DNA from: Qipengyuania xiamenensis
GTDB lineage: Bacteria; Pseudomonadota; Alphaproteobacteria; Sphingomonadales; Sphingomonadaceae
Direction of reading: 5' to 3'
Assembly: GCF_019711495.1 (NCBI RefSeq)
Contig: NZ_JAIGNM010000002.1
Coordinates: 124,001-188,000, forward strand
DNA length: 64,000 bases
Shown here: positions 1-56,338 of the stretch, in pieces
Layout of the letters: each line of letters begins with the position of its first letter
How positions within the stretch are numbered: the first letter of the stretch is position 1
Translations under genes and position numbers: made by a program
The notes under the pieces: generated by a model
Database searches by the model: none
Told to the model about the DNA's origin: nothing
The model's input: only the letters and a program-made list of their open reading frames with translations

Positions 1-1777
1 CTCTTACTTGCTGCAGGAACTGATCGACCTGGTTGCGCAAGACGGAAGCCTGCGCCTCGAGCGCGTCGGCGCTGCCCAGGACCTGCGATGCGGCAGCTCC
101 GGTGGCGAGGCTGGCTTCGCGCACCTGCACGATGCTCGACGACACTTCATCGGTTGAACGCGCCGCAAGATCGATGCTGCGCGCAAGGTCCTGACCTGCG
201 ACAGACTGCTGGTCGACTGCGCTGGCGATCGAGATGGCAGTCGTTTCGAGCTGCTTGATCTGGTCACCGATCGAACGCAGCGCGTTGACGCTGGCGCCGG
301 TGGAGTTCTGCATGTTGCGGATCTGGTCTGCGACTTCCTCGGTCGCACGGCTGGTCTGCGCAGCCAGCTCCTTCACTTCGCTGGCCACGACCGCAAAGCC
401 GCGACCCGCTTCGCCGCCGCGTGCGGCCTCGATGCTGGCGTTGAGCGCAAGCAGGTTGGTGCGCTGGGCAATCGACTGGATCAGTTCGACGATCTGGCCG
501 ACCTGTTCCGCCGAAGCGGCGAGGGTGGAGATCGTCTCGTCTGCGCCTTCTGCATCGTCTGCAGCCTTGCGGGCGAGTTCTGCCGAGTGCGAGGCCTGAC
601 GGCTGATCTCGCCGATCGACATGGCGAATTCGTCCGATGCGGCCGCGGCTGCGGTGACGCCGCCTGAGGCCGTTTCCATCGACTGGCTGACAGCGCCGCT
701 CTGCTGGGTCGCCTGTTCTGCAGTCGCAGCCATGCTCGATGCAGTGGTGTTAAGCTGCGATGATGCAGCAGCAACGCCATTCACCACTTCGCCGACAGTC
801 GCTTCGAATGTTACGGCAAGGCGCTGCAACTCGGCCTTGCGCTCACCGCGCATGGCGTTCTGTTCGCTGGCCATCTCTTCGATCCGGAAAGCAGCTTCGC
901 GGAAAACATCCAGCGAACGGGCCAGATCGCCCAGTTCGTCCTTGCGCTGGAGAGCAGGGATGTGGACGTGCTTGTCGCCCTCGGCAAGCTGCTGCGAAAC
1001 GTCAGTCAGGCGGCCGACCGTCCGCGTGACGTCGCGTGCGATGATCTTGGTGGTCACGAGGATCAGGCCGATTCCTAGACCTGCCGCTGTGAAAAAGGCG
1101 ACGAAAAGCCACCCGATGACGGTGCGCGAATAGGCGTCGTGTTCGACAGCGTAGTCGATCAGGTCGGAGCGCAATTCCGTGCTCGCGTCGTTGAAGGCAT
1201 TGCCGTCAGCCACGGCTGCCAGCGAAATATCGCGCAGCTGTTCGCCGTCGGTCGCATTGCGCGAACGGTCGATGTCGCTCTCGAACGTTGTGAGCTGACC
1301 GCGGAGCGCTTCGATCGTTTCGAGATGCTCCGGCAGGTGAGTGCTCGCGATCGGTGCAAGATCATTGAGGTTGCGGCGGGCATTTTTCGCTGCCGTTCGG
1401 CCGCTCTCGAGCGCCTCGCGGTTTCCGCTCAGCGCATAGTGCTGAACCTCTACAACCGCGGTGGTCGCATTGACCTTCAGCTCGCTGGCAGACGCGATTG
1501 CGTCCGAAATTTCCATGCGATCCGAGCGCAGGTCGAGCGCCAGCCAGCCACCAATGAGGATGGACGCGAGGATCAGGACAACTGCGCCGATATTGGCGAG
1601 CGAGAGCGAACGCAGCTTCGAACCAAGCGACATGTCGGCAAAGAAGCCCAGCACGCCCTTGCGATACGCACCTTCGGAGGCATCGAACCGCGCTTCGGCT
1701 TCGAAGTCCGCGTCATGGTCTTGCAGGAGTATGGCGTTGGCCATCAGTTCGCTGGCGGCCCCGGTCGGCGCATTCAT
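1..1777 (-). CDS. methyl-accepting chemotaxis protein (3' end beyond window)
   Basis: Transmembrane chemoreceptor feeding CheA/CheW. 592 codons are visible and the frame is still open at the left edge. A cytoplasmic N-terminal stretch of about 58 residues precedes TM1 (about 59-82). A helical periplasmic region of about 135 residues follows, then TM2 (about 220-242), HAMP (about 243-296) and the signalling coiled coil. The conserved hairpin tip is clear ([20 protein letters not shown], then [11 protein letters not shown]). Its ATG overlaps the TGA of the upstream GGDEF/EAL gene (ATGA), so it is the last visible gene of the che operon. The C-terminus, where a CheR-docking pentapeptide might lie, is not in the window. 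The ligand cannot be told from the sequence. Confidence 0.93.
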
Positions 1778-4323: not shown

Positions 4324-5408
4324 GCATCAGCTCCCACGCTGGAAAGGACTTTGTCCGCAAGCTCTGCGGGAGGAAGAACGGCAGTCGCGAGACCGCGTTC
4401 GGTGATGTCGCGCGGCATGCCCCAGACGGCGCAGCTATCCGCGTTCTGTGCGTAGACCGAACCGCCCGCATCGATGATAGCATCGGCGCCGTCGGTTCCG
4501 TCGCGGCCCATGCCCGACAGGAGGACGCCTGCGACATGGCCGTCGTAAGCTTCTGCCAGCGTTTCGAACATCGGATCGACCGATGGTGTGCAGCCGCTCT
4601 TCACCGGATTGTAGGCAAGGCCGGTGAGATAGCGCCCGGCTGTCTTGCGAACGACCATGTGGCCGTGACCCGGCGCGATGACGATCTGACCACGGCGGAT
4701 CTCGACGCCTTCATCCGCGAGAACCGCTTCGCGGTCCGATGCCATTTCCATCTGCTTGGCAAATACCGGGATGAAGCTGGCAGGCAGGTGCTGCGTGATG
4801 AGTATCGGCAGATCGAAATTCTTCGGGACCTGGCGCAGGAACAGGTTGAGCGCGTGGATACCGCCGGTCGATGCGCCGATGGCGATGACCTGCGGACGCT
4901 TACCGGCGCGGCGCTTTGCGGGTTCGGGCGCACTGCGCTTGGGCAGTTCGTGCGGAGCAAGGCCCGCAAGTGCGCGGATCTTCCCGATCAGCTGGTCGCG
5001 ATAGTCGTCATTGAAACCGCCAGGGCGCGGCTTGAGCATGGTGTCGGCGGCGCCCATGCGAAGCGCCTCGACCGTGTGCTCGGCACCTTCCGCGGTCAGC
5101 GAAGAAATCACCAGGACCTTGGTTTCCGGCGATTGCTGCTGGATCTTCGGTAGCGCTTCGAGTCCGCCCATGCCGGGCATTTCGAGGTCGAGCAGCATCA
5201 CGTCTACGCGATGGTTGCGCAACTCGTTGAGCCCGGCTTCGGCCGTGCTGGCGCTGGCGACAATATCCATGCCACCGGCACGCTGCAGCATGCGCGTGAA
5301 CACCGTGCGCACGGTCAACGAATCGTCGACCAGCATGACGCGCACGGTACCTGCGGCAGGCTTGCGTTGTGACGCCTCTGATCTGTCTGAGCGGAGCGCG
5401 GTCACCAC
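4314..5408 (-). CDS. cheB: chemotaxis response regulator protein-glutamate methylesterase CheB
   Basis: 364 aa. It removes methyl groups from chemoreceptors when phosphorylated by CheA. The receiver domain (about 23-145) has VDDS and the phospho-acceptor Asp74 in LLDLEMPGM. The methylesterase domain (about 175-360) has the catalytic Ser in GASTGG, His in TQHLP and Asp in GMGRDGTDG. A much longer open frame exists upstream, but it runs through cheY. I chose GTG at 5408 because GGAGG lies 8 nt before it; a second GTG follows directly at 5405. It starts 17 bp after cheY stops. Confidence 0.93.
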   Translation of the reverse strand: MVTALRSDRSEASQRKPAAGTVRVMLVDDSLTVRTVFTRMLQRAGGMDIVASASTAEAGLNELRNHRVDVMLLDLEMPGMGGLEALPKIQQQSPETKVLVISSLTAEGAEHTVEALRMGAADTMLKPRPGGFNDDYRDQLIGKIRALAGLAPHELPKRSAPEPAKRRAGKRPQVIAIGASTGGIHALNLFLRQVPKNFDLPILITQHLPASFIPVFAKQMEMASDREAVLADEGVEIRRGQIVIAPGHGHMVVRKTAGRYLTGLAYNPVKSGCTPSVDPMFETLAEAYDGHVAGVLLSGMGRDGTDGADAIIDAGGSVYAQNADSCAVWGMPRDITERGLATAVLPPAELADKVLSSVGADAWR

Positions 5409-5425
5409 GGCTCTGACCCTCCGGT

Positions 5426-5791
5426 TCAGGCCATGCCGACGAGCTGAAGCTTGATCTGCAGCGTTTCGTGGTCGAACGGCTTCATGACGTATTCGTCGGC
5501 ACCGGCGCTGATCGCTTCGCGGATGTGCGCAACGTCGTTTTCGGTGGTGCAGAAGACGACCTTCGGCTTGTCGCCGCCATCGCGCTGGCGCAGCTGGGTG
5601 ATGAACTCGATGCCGGTCATGACGGGCATATTCCAGTCCAGCAGCACAACGTCGGGCATGTTTTCCATGCACTTGTTGAGGCCTTCCTGGCCGTTTTCGG
5701 CTTCGTCGACCGAGAAGCCGAGAGTTTCGAGAATATGACGCGAAACCTTACGGATAACGCGCGAATCATCGACGATAAGACAGGTTTTCAT
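5426..5791 (-). CDS. cheY: chemotaxis response regulator CheY
   Basis: 121 aa, a single receiver domain. Phosphorylated by CheA, it would carry the signal to the flagellar motor. VDDS supplies the acidic pocket, Asp52 (LLDWNMPVMTG) is the acceptor, Thr82 or Thr83 (FCTTEND) the switch residue, and Lys104 (VMKPF) the conserved lysine. It lies 55 bp after cheW and 17 bp before cheB. A sink or alternative-output role cannot be excluded because no other CheY of this type is visible in the window. Confidence 0.93.
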   Translation of the reverse strand: MKTCLIVDDSRVIRKVSRHILETLGFSVDEAENGQEGLNKCMENMPDVVLLDWNMPVMTGIEFITQLRQRDGGDKPKVVFCTTENDVAHIREAISAGADEYVMKPFDHETLQIKLQLVGMA

Positions 5792-51374: not shown

Positions 51375-51429
51375 CCGGACGCGGAACAGATGAGGCTCCA
51401 ACCCGTTGTTAGGGCAAAGGAGAATTCAT

Positions 51430-51687
51430 ATGATCGGTAAGGTAATCGGAGCATTCGTAGGCGACAAACTCGCCAAGCAGACCAGCGGCCTCGGCGGTGC
51501 CGGCGGCGCCGCGCTCGGCGTGGTCGCAGCATCTGTGCTTCGCCGCATGAGCCTGCCTGCAATGCTTGCTCTTGGCGCTGGCGGTTATGTCGCCAAGAAG
51601 GTTTTCGAGAAGAAGAGTTCCGAACCCAGCGGCACCACGACCGCGAGCGAGCCGGAAGGGAAGGCCAAGGCCCGCAAGGCTGCATGA
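51430..51687 (+). CDS. small Gly/Ala-rich membrane-associated protein
   Basis: 85 aa. A Gly/Ala-rich stretch (GLGGAGGAALGVVAASVL) and a second hydrophobic segment (MLALGAGGYVAKKVF) precede a charged tail. AAGGAGA lies upstream of ATG at 51430. Followed by a strong intrinsic terminator, so it forms its own unit. Function unknown. Confidence 0.7.
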   Translation: MIGKVIGAFVGDKLAKQTSGLGGAGGAALGVVAASVLRRMSLPAMLALGAGGYVAKKVFEKKSSEPSGTTTASEPEGKAKARKAA

Positions 51688-51710
51688 CCAGTCTTTCGCA
51701 TAAGCTCGAA

Positions 51711-51737
51711 GGGCCGTCCGCTTGGGCGGCCCTTTTT
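51711..51737 (+). terminator. intrinsic terminator
   Basis: GGGCCGTCC (51711-51719) pairs with GGGCGGCCC (51724-51732) with one U-G wobble and a 4-nt loop, followed by TTTTT. It ends the small membrane-protein transcript and separates it from the LOV gene. Confidence 0.92.
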
Positions 51738-51796
51738 GTATGCGTGCGTTTGCGGCAAAACTTGTGGCGCTCGGTGATTGGGATTAACTCGACTGA

Positions 51797-52342
51797 ATGA
51801 GCGCGCATTTCTCAGTCGAGGACCCGCTTGGCGGGATGAGCGACCTGTTCAGGGACAGCACGATCTCGCTTTCCCTGGCTGATTACACACAGGACGATTG
51901 CCCGCTGATCGGGATCAATGCGCGCTTCACCGAGCTTTCCGGATACACCGCCTCGGAATGCCTCGGGAGGAATTGCCGTTTCCTCCAGCCCGAAGGAGGG
52001 GCCGGCCCGGTACGCGAGAGAATGCGTGCTTTCCTGGGCGACGAAAGCATGGATCACGACCGCTTCGTCGTGCCCAATGTGCGCAAGGACGGGACGCCGT
52101 TCCTAAACCTGCTTTACATGTCGAAACTGCAGCGGGACGGGCGCACGGCGCTGATCCTCGGTTCGCAGTTCGATATCAGCAGGGTCGGCGCCTACGAAAG
52201 CGACATCTACGACCGCGCCTTGCACGAAGATTTGATCAGCCTCAAACTATTGACTGAAAAAACGAATTGGAGTCTTGTAACCAGCCTCGAGGCACTCGCT
52301 TCGAGTCATGCGATCATAGCACAGGCGAGGATCGAACCTTAG
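51797..52342 (+). CDS. short LOV-domain blue-light photoreceptor
   Basis: 181 aa. The LOV core (about 22-128) has the photoactive Cys60 in GRNCRFLQ, with N59, R61 and Q64. Further flavin contacts are present at Asn94 and Asn104 (NVRKDGTPFLN) and Gln124 (GSQFDIS). These are the residues that bind FMN and form the cysteinyl adduct in blue light. A helical tail of about 50 residues follows and no output domain is attached, so it must act through a partner. The partner is probably the hybrid kinase encoded 26 bp downstream. No clear Shine-Dalgarno is visible. Confidence 0.92.
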   Translation: MSAHFSVEDPLGGMSDLFRDSTISLSLADYTQDDCPLIGINARFTELSGYTASECLGRNCRFLQPEGGAGPVRERMRAFLGDESMDHDRFVVPNVRKDGTPFLNLLYMSKLQRDGRTALILGSQFDISRVGAYESDIYDRALHEDLISLKLLTEKTNWSLVTSLEALASSHAIIAQARIEP

Positions 52343-52368
52343 CCATTGAGTGAGGGGCAGGCGTACCT

Positions 52369-55300
52369 GTGGCCGAAAAGAATGCTGGCAAATCTACTTT
52401 TCCGATAATCGGTGTCGGAGCATCTGCTGGGGGGCTGGAAGCCTTGCGGTCGATGTTCAGCGGTTACAGCGAAGAGCTCCGCATGGCCTTCGTCGTGGTC
52501 CAACATCTCGACCCCACGCACGAATCGCTCATGGCCCAGCTGATCGAGCGCTACACCCCGATGGAGGTGAAGCAGGCAGAGGGCGGCGAGAAGATCGAGC
52601 CCAACCACATCTACGTCATCCCGCCCGGCCACGGCCTGGCCGTGGAGGACGGCGTCCTGAAACTCACCGAGTTCACCGATCCGCGCGGAATGCGGCGCCC
52701 GATCGACGACTTTTTCGAAAGCCTCGCGCGGGACCGCGACAACAATGCCGCCTGTGTCATTCTGTCGGGCACCGGCGCAGACGGCAGCAAGGGGCTGCGC
52801 CTCATCAAGGAGCGCGGTGGTATCTGCGTTGCACAGGAGCCGGAAACCGCAGCCTATGACGGCATGCCGGCTGCAGCCATCGGTACGGGACTGGTCGATA
52901 TCAAGTGCCCCCCGAGCGAGATACTCAAATACCTCGCCGACTTCTTCGAACGCGGACATCTGGTGGAAGCTGCGGAGACCGACGATGGGCGGATCGCAGA
53001 CCATGTGATCGAGCTTTGCGAGATCCTGCGCGACCGCGTCGGGCACGACTTCAGCGGGTACAAGCGCAGCACCCTCAATCGCCGCGTCGCGCGCCGCATG
53101 CAGGTGCTGGGAATCGACGAGGGCAAGGAATATGTCGATCATCTGCGTGAAAACGAGGAAGAGTGCCGCGCGCTGTTCCGCGATCTTCTGATCAACGTCA
53201 CCCAGTTCTTCCGCGATCCGAAGCATTTCGAGGTGCTGCAGGAAACGGTGATCGACAGCCTCGTGGCACAGGCGAGGGACGGGCAGGATATCCGCGTCTG
53301 GGTGCCCGGCTGTTCGAGCGGTGAGGAAGCATATTCCATTGCCATGATGTTCGCCGATTCCAGCGAGCGGCAGGGCAAGCGCCCCTATGTCCAGATATTC
53401 GCCACAGATATCGACGAGGGCATGCTTTCGATCGCCCGATCGGCGACCTATTCGTTGTCCTCATTGAAGGATATTCCCGACCGCTATCAGGAGAAATACA
53501 TCTTCGGCGGCACGGACCGCTTTTCGATTTCGCCGCGCATCAGGGACATGGTTCGCTTCAGCGAACACAACGTCGTTCGCGACCCGCCCTATTCGAAGAT
53601 CGATCTCATCAGCTGTCGCAATCTGTTGATCTATTTCAACGAAGACCTGCAGAAGCTGACCCTGCCGCTGTTCCACTTCGCTCTTGCCGAGGACGGCTTC
53701 CTTTTCCTCGGCTCGTCCGAAACGATCGGGCGTCACGACGACCTCTTCGAGACAGCGGAACAGAGTACGCGCATCTTCCGCAAGAAGAACGTGAAGGGGA
53801 ACTACACCCTGCGTCTTCCGGGAGAGATGGCCCGCACGTCCAGATTGCGGACGAGAAACCCCGAAGAGGGCGCGCCGCGCAACAATCGTCCGAACGAACT
53901 TCGGGCGCTGAAAATTCTCGCGGATCGCTACTCGCCGGTCAGCCTCCTCGTCGACCATGAAGGCATGCTCCTCGAACGCTGGGGCTCGGCGGGACGCTAC
54001 CTCGAATTTCCCGACCGCATCGAGCGCAATGTGCATGTGCCGACACTAGCGCGGCCCGGCCTGCGTGAAGTCATCTCGCCGCTTATCCGCAAGGTGAAGG
54101 AAACCGGGCGGCGAGCGGCCGCCAAGAACATCCAGATTCGTACGGACTTCGGGACCATCGAGGCTCGCATCGTTTGCGAAGAAGTCCAGTCATCGGGCTT
54201 CCTGCTGGTGATCCAGGAAACCGGTACGCTGAAGCTATCGGAAGTCGATGATTTCGACGAATTCGATCTTGAAGACGGGCAGCGCCAGTTCCTGGAAGAG
54301 GAGCTTCAGGCCACGCGGCATCGCCTACGTTCGACTGTCGAGGAACTCGAGACGACGAACGAGGAGCTGAAAAGCTCCAACGAAGAAATGATGTCGATGA
54401 ACGAGGAGCTCCAATCGACCAACGAGGAGCTCACCACCGTCAATGACGAGCTCAAGAACAAGGTCGACCAGCTCACCGTTGCCAACTCGGACCTCAAGAA
54501 CTTCTTCGACAGCACCCAGCTCGCAGTGCTCGTTGTAGATCCCGATCTCCGCCTGCGCAGCTATACCGACGAAGCACTCGATCTTTTCCCCATCGACAAG
54601 AGCTATATCGGCCAGCAGCTGGGTGAATTGCCGCACCGGCTGGCTTCCACCGAGTTCGTCAATCTCGCGCGCGAGGCTGCGGGCTCGGGCAGGCAAAGCG
54701 AGATCAGCCTGCATTCGAAGGAACTCGACACAGAGCTCATCCTGCGCGTCATCCCTTATCGCCTGCTCGATGGGGACGTCGAAGGTGCAACACTTGTCTT
54801 TACCGATGTGACCCAGGCACTGTCGCTGGAGCGCGACTTGCGCGAAGAGAGGGAGCGCCTGAGACTGGCTCTCGAGGTCGCGAAAATCGGCATCTGGGAA
54901 TACGAGCCGAAAACCGATCGTACGGTCCTCGATGAAACGGAGCGCGAGCTTCTAAACCTTTCGGACGACGATCCCGGCGATTCGATGGAGCCGATCCTCG
55001 ATCTCCTCTCGGAAGAAGACCGCAACCGTATCAATCGCGCGCTGCGTATTGCGATCGACGGCGGTGAGACATTCGACGAGACCTTCCGCCTCCCGCTACC
55101 CGATGGCGAATTCCGCTGGCTGCACGGGCTTGGCAAGCCGATCGAAATCGCTGGCGAACGCAAGTTCATCGGGGTGACTTTCGACATTACGCCGGAACGC
55201 TCGATCCTTGCCCAGCGCGATCTCATGATCCGCGAGATGAACCACCGGGTGAAGAACCTGTTCTCGGTCATCTCGGCGATGGTCAGTATTTCGTCGCGCG

Positions 55301-55791
55301 GCGCGGAAGATGTGAAGGAATTCGCGACCGCGCTTCGAGACCGCATCCATGCGCTCGGGCGCTCGCATGCCCTCACCACGCCCCGGCCCGAAGGGCGGCG
55401 GGGCGAAGTTGAGCTGAAGGACCTGGTCGAAACCGTCCTCCAGCCAAGCCGCGGTGGACAGAAGATCTCGATGCCCTCCAGCATGGTGAAGGTCGGCGAC
55501 GAGCAGCTAACTTCGCTGGCGCTTATCTTCCACGAATGGGCAACGAACTCGGCCAAGTATGGCGCCCTGTCGAGTGAGACGGGTTCGATCGCCATCGACT
55601 GGAATGTCACTGACGGCGAAATTTCGATTCAGTGGATCGAGAAGGGACCCGCTTCGGAAAGCGAAGATGTCGCAGGTTTCGGAACGCGCCTCATCGAAAC
55701 CGCTGCACGTCAGTTGCATGGCACGGCTACGGGTGAGGTTACGGAAGAAGGCTACCGGCGGACCCTCGTCTACCCGACCTCATCCCAATGA
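52369..55791 (+). CDS. CheB-CheR-PAS-PAS-HWE hybrid histidine kinase
   Basis: 1140 aa with GTG start. CheB methylesterase domain (about 11-190) with Ser19, His46 and Asp138. CheR methyltransferase domain (about 205-475) with TQFFRD, PGCSSGEEAYSIAM and SCRNLLIYF. Coiled coil (about 640-710) with repeated NEEL units. PAS region (about 710-820), second PAS (about 830-945), and a kinase domain with the phospho-His959 in REMNHRVKNLF, HEWATNSAKYGALS and the WIEKGP W-x-E motif of HWE kinases. It follows the LOV gene closely and faces a receiver gene. The PAS segments lack the LOV cysteine motif, so light sensing would come from the separate LOV protein. Confidence 0.93.
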   Translation: MAEKNAGKSTFPIIGVGASAGGLEALRSMFSGYSEELRMAFVVVQHLDPTHESLMAQLIERYTPMEVKQAEGGEKIEPNHIYVIPPGHGLAVEDGVLKLTEFTDPRGMRRPIDDFFESLARDRDNNAACVILSGTGADGSKGLRLIKERGGICVAQEPETAAYDGMPAAAIGTGLVDIKCPPSEILKYLADFFERGHLVEAAETDDGRIADHVIELCEILRDRVGHDFSGYKRSTLNRRVARRMQVLGIDEGKEYVDHLRENEEECRALFRDLLINVTQFFRDPKHFEVLQETVIDSLVAQARDGQDIRVWVPGCSSGEEAYSIAMMFADSSERQGKRPYVQIFATDIDEGMLSIARSATYSLSSLKDIPDRYQEKYIFGGTDRFSISPRIRDMVRFSEHNVVRDPPYSKIDLISCRNLLIYFNEDLQKLTLPLFHFALAEDGFLFLGSSETIGRHDDLFETAEQSTRIFRKKNVKGNYTLRLPGEMARTSRLRTRNPEEGAPRNNRPNELRALKILADRYSPVSLLVDHEGMLLERWGSAGRYLEFPDRIERNVHVPTLARPGLREVISPLIRKVKETGRRAAAKNIQIRTDFGTIEARIVCEEVQSSGFLLVIQETGTLKLSEVDDFDEFDLEDGQRQFLEEELQATRHRLRSTVEELETTNEELKSSNEEMMSMNEELQSTNEELTTVNDELKNKVDQLTVANSDLKNFFDSTQLAVLVVDPDLRLRSYTDEALDLFPIDKSYIGQQLGELPHRLASTEFVNLAREAAGSGRQSEISLHSKELDTELILRVIPYRLLDGDVEGATLVFTDVTQALSLERDLREERERLRLALEVAKIGIWEYEPKTDRTVLDETERELLNLSDDDPGDSMEPILDLLSEEDRNRINRALRIAIDGGETFDETFRLPLPDGEFRWLHGLGKPIEIAGERKFIGVTFDITPERSILAQRDLMIREMNHRVKNLFSVISAMVSISSRGAEDVKEFATALRDRIHALGRSHALTTPRPEGRRGEVELKDLVETVLQPSRGGQKISMPSSMVKVGDEQLTSLALIFHEWATNSAKYGALSSETGSIAIDWNVTDGEISIQWIEKGPASESEDVAGFGTRLIETAARQLHGTATGEVTEEGYRRTLVYPTSSQ

Positions 55792-55807
55792 GGCGATTGT
55801 CGTAGTA

Positions 55808-56158
55808 TCAGTTTAGAGCGCCGGCGATCGCCTCGGCGATCTCGTCGCGCGATGCGGGTTTGTCCAGGCGGCCACAGGAAGCGAATTCCTCGCGCAGCTC
55901 TTCGTGGTTCAGGTTTGCGCTGACGAAAACAACCGGCTTTCCATGCTCCACGATCTTGCGTGCGAGCGGCCATACGGGACTGCCTCCGACATCGATGTCG
56001 AGCAGCGCCACATCGGGAGGCGAACCGGTCTCGATGGCGGAAATCGCATCTTCGATGGTGGTGGATTCCGAATGCACCCCGTAGCCGAGATCTTCGACTG
56101 TCATGACGAGATCGAAAAGCACAAGTGCCTCGTCATCGACGATCATCACATCGGTCAT
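55808..56158 (-). CDS. single-domain response regulator
   Basis: 116 aa. Receiver fold with VDDE, phospho-acceptor Asp54 (ALLDIDVGG), Ser80 (FVSAN) and Lys100 (LDKPAS). The domain ends there, without an output domain. ATG at 56158 has AGGA next to it; the open frame upstream to 56257 lacks conserved sequence. It is convergent with the hybrid kinase gene (16 bp apart) and probably takes phosphate from it or from another HWE kinase. Confidence 0.88.
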   Translation of the reverse strand: MTDVMIVDDEALVLFDLVMTVEDLGYGVHSESTTIEDAISAIETGSPPDVALLDIDVGGSPVWPLARKIVEHGKPVVFVSANLNHEELREEFASCGRLDKPASRDEIAEAIAGALN

Positions 56159-56338
56159 TCCTGCGCGATTCCCCGGTTTATACGCTATTCGTGCGGTTCG
56201 AACGCGCGGAGTCACGAAATCGTTCCACCCGCACGTTCGCTTTTTTGGCAGGGGCAATGCGGTGCAACTGCCAGCGGTCGCGGATCGCCTTCACGCGAAC
56301 GAGGAAAGCTTCGAGGCCGTCCGATTTTGGCTGGGAGA

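Follow-up and report, generated by a model that had tools for sequence, protein, structure and literature searches.

A short LOV protein gene adjoining a CheB-CheR-PAS-HWE kinase gene in Qipengyuania xiamenensis and other alphaproteobacteria: a candidate split blue-light sensor kinase

In light sensors of the LovK-LovR/EL346 type, the LOV sensor and an HWE kinase form a single polypeptide chain, and a single-domain receiver is encoded next to it. LovR of Caulobacter is a receiver that is induced in the general stress response and acts in feedback on the kinase. The short LOV protein RsLOV of Rhodobacter sphaeroides (PDB 4HJ3, 7OB0) has no output domain, and a 2022 paper states that the binding partners of RsLOV, DsLOV and the short LOVs of P. 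putida had not been identified (PMC9758184). That paper also describes PmSB-LOV of Pseudomonas mendocina, a short LOV encoded beside a separate effector on which it acts, the MerR-type repressor LitR (PmlR2). In Bacillus cereus, the methyltransferase RsbM methylates the signalling (S-) helix of the stress kinase RsbK; RsbM is a stand-alone enzyme and has no cognate esterase (PMC4574943). Here we describe a locus of Qipengyuania xiamenensis in which a short LOV gene is followed by the gene of a kinase with CheB, CheR, PAS and HWE domains. The locus lies within a stretch of 64,000 nucleotides (contig NZ_JAIGNM010000002.1, positions 124,001 to 188,000), referred to below as the window, whose own numbering is used throughout.

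Among the proteins in the PDB, the LOV protein of the window is most similar to RsLOV, both in structure and in its alignment profile; the two are of similar length and neither has an output domain. The RsLOV gene also adjoins a gene encoding a CheB-CheR-PAS-HWE kinase (locus L222), but its LOV and kinase genes are divergent, whereas those of the window are co-directional. With the LovK-LovR type the locus shares a LOV sensor, an HWE kinase and an adjacent single-domain receiver, and a link with the general stress response may be common to both; it differs in that sensor and kinase are separate proteins, and in the presence of CheB, CheR and a long helix in the kinase. Scores against the NF052306 blue-light kinase profile (70.8 and 110.4 bits) were far below the cut-off of 450. 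The proposed action of a methyltransferase on the signalling helix of a kinase recalls RsbK-RsbM, except that CheR and CheB are both contained within the kinase chain of the window and that a LOV protein is proposed as its input. As in the case of PmSB-LOV, a short LOV is encoded beside a separate candidate effector, in this instance a kinase. None of the titles, abstract openings and passages covered by our searches of open-access papers names the pairing of a CheB-CheR kinase and a short LOV; this is not proof of novelty, since subscription papers on RsLOV were outside that scope.

The two genes form a conserved, tightly coupled pair with intact active residues, which occurs in two layouts, that of the RsLOV type included. 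The features of the locus are as follows.

51797-52342, plus strand: short LOV photoreceptor, 181 amino acids (aa) (open reading frame (ORF), Pfam, AlphaFold2; best Foldseek match RsLOV)
51974-51976, plus strand: codon of the photoactive Cys60, within the LOV gene
52369-55791, plus strand: CheB-CheR-PAS-coiled coil-PAS-PAS-HWE sensor kinase, 1140 aa, GTG start (Pfam, AlphaFold2)
52408-52932, plus strand: CheB methylesterase domain, residues 14-188, with Ser19, His46 and Asp138 (PF01339, E 1.9e-55)
53014-53769, plus strand: CheR N-terminal and S-adenosylmethionine-binding methyltransferase domains, residues 216-467, with Arg282, Gly318, Glu319, Asp347 and Asn418 (PF03705, PF01739)
53896-54219, plus strand: probable PAS-like fold after CheR and before the coiled coil, residues 510-617 (assigned from AlphaFold2 secondary structure)
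54268-54510, plus strand: long signalling helix, residues 634-714, the proposed methyl-acceptor (one 81-residue helix in the AlphaFold2 model; conservation, repeats)
54493-55176, plus strand: two PAS domains, PAS_10 (residues 709-815) and PAS_3 (856-936), without the LOV cysteine motif (Pfam, sequence)
55234-55788, plus strand: HWE kinase domains (PF07536, E 3e-15, residues 956-1033), with N-box Asn1060 and W1089-x-E1091
55243-55245, plus strand: codon of the predicted phospho-acceptor His959, within the HWE region
55808-56158, minus strand: single-domain receiver, 116 aa, predicted phospho-acceptor Asp54 (Pfam Response_reg)
56201-56226, minus strand: promoter-like site of the EcfG type, EcfG being the general stress sigma factor, GGAAC-N17-CGTT, upstream of the receiver gene (motif scan)

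The original prediction, made from the nucleotide sequence, had described a LOV protein with Cys60 and all residues contacting flavin mononucleotide (FMN) but without an output domain, encoded 26 bp ahead of a 1140-residue kinase composed of methylesterase, methyltransferase, coiled-coil, PAS and HWE parts and devoid of a LOV motif. The coordinates of the two genes confirm this arrangement, the GTG start codon of the kinase gene being placed 26 bp past the LOV stop codon on the same strand. The description of the LOV protein is borne out by residue conservation, Pfam and the structural model given below, and Pfam and the sequence agree on the composition of the kinase. It had also been proposed that sensor and kinase are separate proteins, and a search for the adjacency of their genes in other genomes had been suggested; the adjacency proved to be conserved, which supports that proposal.

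When the LOV protein was used as a query (E ≤ 1e-20) against 298 genomes of the family, 19 contained a match, and 17 of these LOV genes (that of the window included) lie upstream of a complete kinase gene on the same strand, with nothing between the two in 13 cases and about 0.9 kb in four (genus g37, Croceicoccus type). Of the other two, one is truncated by a contig end and one is a remnant (L037). The reverse search, with the kinase (E ≤ 1e-200), found it in 19 of the 298 genomes, 17 of which also have the LOV gene; the two genes thus come and go together, with few exceptions on each side. In a sample of the order (396 genomes, at most eight candidates scored per genome), 38 full-length LOV matches (E ≤ 2.7e-39) are sharply separated from all others (E ≥ 2e-34), and the kinase gene adjoins the LOV gene on the same strand in all 38, the pair of the window among them; the next two ranks are broken LOV copies (G552, G026). 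A GTDB set, restricted to the best 80 of 118 loci, contains a same-strand kinase gene beside the LOV gene in 78 loci (three cut by contig ends, five with an extra gene between the two). These 78 include loci of Palleronia, Sagittula, Paracoccus, Methylobacterium, Aureimonas and Hellea, and we take the orders represented to be Sphingomonadales, Rhodobacterales (Palleronia, Sagittula, Paracoccus) and Rhizobiales (Methylobacterium, Aureimonas). Removing 12 duplicates left 87 distinct loci, including that of the window, 85 of which are pairs. With start codons chosen by script, the two genes overlap in 33 of the 85 pairs and are separated by 50 nt or less in 77. Such conservation argues that the adjacency is not due to chance.

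Two damaged loci were encountered in these searches. In L037 (4971-5730, genome G026), a deletion has left the first half of the LOV gene directly followed, out of frame, by the terminal portion of the kinase gene, with the receiver gene still open; this is a natural loss of the LOV-kinase pair. L256 (G552) carries a broken short-LOV remnant in two pieces in different frames, and no kinase match was found in the 7.4 kb taken. Five Croceicoccus loci have about 0.9 kb between the LOV and kinase genes. In the one that was scanned (L026, 5498-6262) this space contains a gene encoding a Crp-type regulator, which overlaps the LOV stop codon and is perhaps an alternative output in that genus. No lone receiver was found near the five loci.

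The kinship with RsLOV is supported by several comparisons. RsLOV is the best PDB match to the LOV alignment profile and the top Foldseek match to the model, with template modelling (TM) scores of 0.80/0.82 for the top chain. Query-side TM scores were 0.70-0.80 for the RsLOV chains and 0.53-0.66 for the other chains among the 50 matches listed. The LOV protein of the window and RsLOV share 25-30% identity over the structural alignments, and full-length profiles of 84 LOVs and nine RsLOV-type LOVs align in register (E 3e-43).

A search with RsLOV (E ≤ 1e-22) of 248 genomes, representing the family of a Paracoccus (G564), identified an RsLOV-type protein in 11, and in nine of them a CheB-CheR-HWE kinase gene is divergently adjacent, with a PAS match in seven of the nine kinases. 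Within the genus of the best match, the divergent pairing is present in four of five genomes (G616 is counted in both sets), and the fifth (L225) retains only kinase remnants. The LOV protein of L222 is 99.4% identical to the RsLOV query, a PDB variant chain, and L222 is almost certainly R. sphaeroides itself. Its kinase is about 52% (CheB), 44% (CheR) and 29% (HWE) identical to that of the window. Since the pairing occurs in two layouts, it points to a functional link rather than to accident, and its recurrence across alphaproteobacteria suggests that this kinase is a long-sought partner of this kind of short LOV. A LOV-kinase fusion had been suspected in L173/L202, which contain a 1341-aa open frame; the frame proved to be an antisense one that extends into the LOV gene, and LOV is separate there and divergent from the kinase.

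The LOV protein has a single Pfam match, PAS_9. It comprises a core (about residues 14-127) and a helical tail (132-181). In the AlphaFold2 model, built from 50 aligned LOVs (mean predicted local distance difference test score (pLDDT) 89.9), the core is followed by a helix of 23 residues (132-154) and, at the end, a short helical segment. The residues C60, N59, Q64, N94, N104 and Q124 are invariant in the 18 LOVs of the family search, which used no motif, and are kept in all 84 of a larger set (incomplete L037, L089 and L123 excluded), although agreement in the latter is partly built in, because its GTDB part was found by two patterns containing some of the tested motifs. We assume that the conserved residues other than the photoactive cysteine have their usual roles in FMN contact.

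Above the cut-off, the kinase has Pfam matches to CheB_methylest, CheR_N, CheR, PAS_10, PAS_4, PAS_3 and HWE_HK, and a reading of its sequence found no motif of the NCRFLQ type. The AlphaFold2 model contains three PAS-like folds (510-617, 718-813 and 840-939), for the first of which the Pfam scan gave no match. Built from 30 of 82 aligned kinases (mean pLDDT 77.6, predicted TM score 0.41), this model is reliable for the domains and the helix only. Residue conservation was assessed in 82 complete kinases, leaving out the five loci in which the kinase is missing or incomplete (L037, L054, L062, L074 and L123). Of the CheB residues, S19 and H46 are each retained in 81 of these sequences and D138 in all 82. 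The CheR residues R282, G318, E319, D347 and N418 and the HWE residues H959, N1060, W1089 and E1091 are kept in all, and the N-box His in 80. The roles of the CheB and CheR residues are assumed to be those of the E. coli/Salmonella enzymes, and the HWE residues are assumed to have the roles usual in this class of kinase.

The best-conserved stretch of the kinase is the signalling helix: the commonest residue of a column has a mean frequency of 0.86 over residues 633-700 (41 of 68 columns invariant), the corresponding values being 0.78 for CheB, 0.74 for CheR and 0.57-0.64 for the PAS regions. This mean rises to 0.93 (33 of 43 columns invariant) in the repeat core, residues 648-690, a range chosen by eye. 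The helix contains five [ASTG]xxEExx[ASTG] repeats with a spacing of seven residues, starting at residues 655, 662, 669, 676 and 683, and five such repeats occur in the helix of all 82 kinases (the rest of the chain averages 1.3). The pattern resembles the inner part of the chemoreceptor methylation consensus. Methyl-accepting chemotaxis proteins (MCPs) were sought in 21 genomes, one of which, a Leisingera without the kinase, stands outside the 20 with the pair (19 co-directional, one divergent). MCPs are present in 14 of the 20 and absent from six (G092, G119, G178, G221, G258 and G564), in which the methylation domains therefore cannot serve chemoreceptors. The idea of a methylation-based adaptation built into the kinase, raised in the original prediction, is strengthened by the retention of the CheB and CheR residues (81-82 of 82), by the repeats of the helix and by the pair genomes devoid of MCPs; we judge self-methylation of the kinase, as proposed from its sequence, to have an even chance of being correct.

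The receiver gene faces the kinase gene from the opposite strand. A lone convergent receiver had been predicted, and a Response_reg protein is indeed encoded there, but its presence is not constant: 22 of the 87 loci yielded no receiver, contig ends truncating some of these. In the 65 loci with both genes, the receiver retains Asp54 and Lys100 in every case and is encoded on the strand of the kinase in 31. The general stress promoter of Sphingopyxis has been described as GGAAC-N16-CGTT with a flexible -10 box (PMC7083833). The form GGAAC-N15-18-[CG]GTT occurs within 100 bp upstream of the receiver gene in 13 of 34 opposite-strand loci, against a background of 0.28%, and GGAAC alone in 25 of the 34 (background 10%). 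Counted among both the 34 and the 13 are the remnant L037 and also L063, whose receiver gene lies upstream of the LOV gene. A looser form, ending in NNTT (background 1.2%), precedes 23 of the 34 opposite-strand receivers, none of the 31 same-strand ones and nine of 87 LOV genes. The loci are related, so the counts are not independent; the spacers differ, and two of the matches, Hellea L063 and Sagittula L081, are not from the Erythrobacter group. For this part of the family, the sites suggest a receiver that may be induced by the general stress response and feed back on the kinase. Whether the output of the kinase passes through the general stress response appears to us evenly balanced on the sequence data.

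For the LOV-kinase operon itself, the [CG]GTT form was found within 100 bp of only one of 87 LOV genes, and the CGTT form within 320 bp of four of 99 LOVs, two of them duplicates; the looser matches may represent a partial or weak EcfG-type signal at LOV genes. Just upstream of the LOV gene of the window, an EcfG-type promoter-like site (GGAAC-N16-CGTT; 51383-51407, plus strand) precedes a small ORF encoding a glycine-rich product (51430-51687, plus strand), and a terminator-like hairpin (about 51710-51739, identified by eye) is located between this ORF and the LOV gene.

We propose that the pair constitutes a split blue-light sensor kinase, with LOV acting in trans and the kinase helix being reversibly methylated, a reading that we regard as reasonably probable as a whole. 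That LOV and kinase are functional partners is very probable, judging from their genes, and direct control of kinase activity by light is likely, if less so. The RsLOV-type LOV would bind FMN and form a cysteinyl adduct in blue light, and its shape or oligomeric state would then change through the helical ends. It would act in trans on the kinase, setting the autophosphorylation of His959, most likely by contact of the LOV tail with the N-terminal half or the signalling helix of the kinase. CheR would add and CheB would remove methyl groups on glutamates of the helix, which may provide adaptation to, or a memory of, past light. The phosphate would pass to PhyR, which is encoded in the genome, and/or to the lone receiver, and the opposite-strand receiver with an EcfG-type site, present in part of the family, may be an induced feedback sink comparable to LovR of Caulobacter. 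Our most specific proposal, that a detachable LOV drives a self-methylating and self-demethylating kinase, making a cytoplasmic, MCP-free, adapting light sensor, and that the same design is the missing output of RsLOV, is tentative and somewhat less likely than its negation.

Other explanations were considered. The CheB-CheR part could act on chemoreceptors, so that light alters MCP methylation and thereby motility, the HWE part being a side branch. The genome of the window contains four MCP matches, most pair genomes contain MCPs (14 of 20), and RsLOV is reported to affect chemotaxis genes in R. sphaeroides (PMC4335406); yet the methylation residues are kept almost without exception although six pair genomes have no MCP, and a nearer candidate substrate, the EE helix, is present in the same chain. 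We therefore regard this explanation as improbable, and the simpler notion that CheB and CheR serve the MCPs of the genome is likewise weakened by the MCP search. It is also unlikely, though slightly less so, that the main output is the receiver, serving as a CheY-like effector and not as a sink in feedback on the general stress response. Its invariant Asp54 and Lys100 and its position on the strand of the kinase in nearly half of the loci would fit such a role, but a stress-sigma promoter-like site of its own, in 13 of the 34 opposite-strand loci, is what feedback predicts, and the loci without a receiver, the five of Croceicoccus among them, indicate that it is not obligatory.

The strongest of the competing readings, still an unlikely one, is that the two genes are merely co-regulated, LOV controlling another protein while the kinase senses something else with its own PAS domains. 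Two RsLOV-type genes have no kinase gene beside them (one, in L205, lies next to genes for dynamin-like GTPases), two kinases of the class occur without LOV, and the short LOV of Pseudomonas has a non-kinase partner, a LitR repressor, in the account cited above (PMC9758184). Adjacency in 38 of 38 cases, together with a second, divergent layout involving the same kind of kinase, is hard to explain in this way. Least probable by far is a LOV protein that senses flavin redox state and not light. LOV flavins can respond to redox state, and photosynthesis explains no need for light, given that reaction-centre genes are absent from the 17 family genomes with the pair; the photoactive cysteine needed for the adduct is, however, kept in all 84 and all 18 LOVs. 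A tie between the pair and anoxygenic photosynthesis was rejected on the same count, 0 of 17 (the R. sphaeroides relative G616, the one genome searched of that kind, does have reaction-centre genes).

Several observations weigh against a split light-sensor kinase as proposed here. Each gene can exist alone: G198 and G005 have the kinase without a LOV match (E ≤ 1e-3) in the 14.5-16 kb taken, and the Leisingera genome lacks an ortholog of the kinase, the closest match in it being a partial one of 32% identity, located elsewhere. The loci examined contained no fusion of LOV and kinase. Two of the 11 RsLOV-type genes have neighbours other than the kinase, and the comparison of tail-only profiles with RsLOV-type proteins (84 versus nine) was not significant (E 0.061). 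The EE-repeat pattern was defined after the helix of the window had been read, and because the R. sphaeroides-type kinase also has it, with six repeats, the EE helix may mark CheB-CheR kinases generally and not LOV coupling. As to the stress response, the [CG]GTT-form site was found within 100 bp of none of the 31 same-strand receivers and is absent from all ten divergent R. sphaeroides-type gaps; these absences and the missing receivers confine the link to part of the family.

Through the proposed partnership, a large family of short LOVs, to which the RsLOV type belongs, would have a candidate kinase partner that is specific and conserved. If the kinase does adapt by methylating itself, the system would be a self-contained unit of sensory adaptation outside the chemoreceptor array, and a natural two-protein light-controlled kinase for optogenetics.

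Some neighbouring arrangements deserve mention. The two GTDB loci without a kinase belong to a Leisingera and a Rhodobacteraceae metagenome-assembled genome and have the last 120 LOV residues in common; in these loci (L074, L075) the Leisingera-type LOV has intact LOV residues and no kinase is encoded nearby. In L205 (8866-12700, minus strand), the RsLOV-type LOV gene follows ORFs for dynamin-type GTPases and a small roadblock-looking stretch, and no kinase gene is present. In L207 (about 4387-5439, plus strand), also without a kinase gene, it is preceded by a small ORF that is similar by eye and has no Pfam match. These neighbours are possibly a second kind of short-LOV partner.

The genome of the window has nine HWE_HK matches, the kinase described here included. 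A fused LOV-HWE kinase of the ordinary kind, 366 aa long, is encoded there as well (L002), next to a lone receiver of its own; no EcfG-type site was found at this locus. At its left edge the window begins in or near an MCP gene (113-604, minus strand), and a second MCP gene is located just outside (G000:C2:122715-123203).

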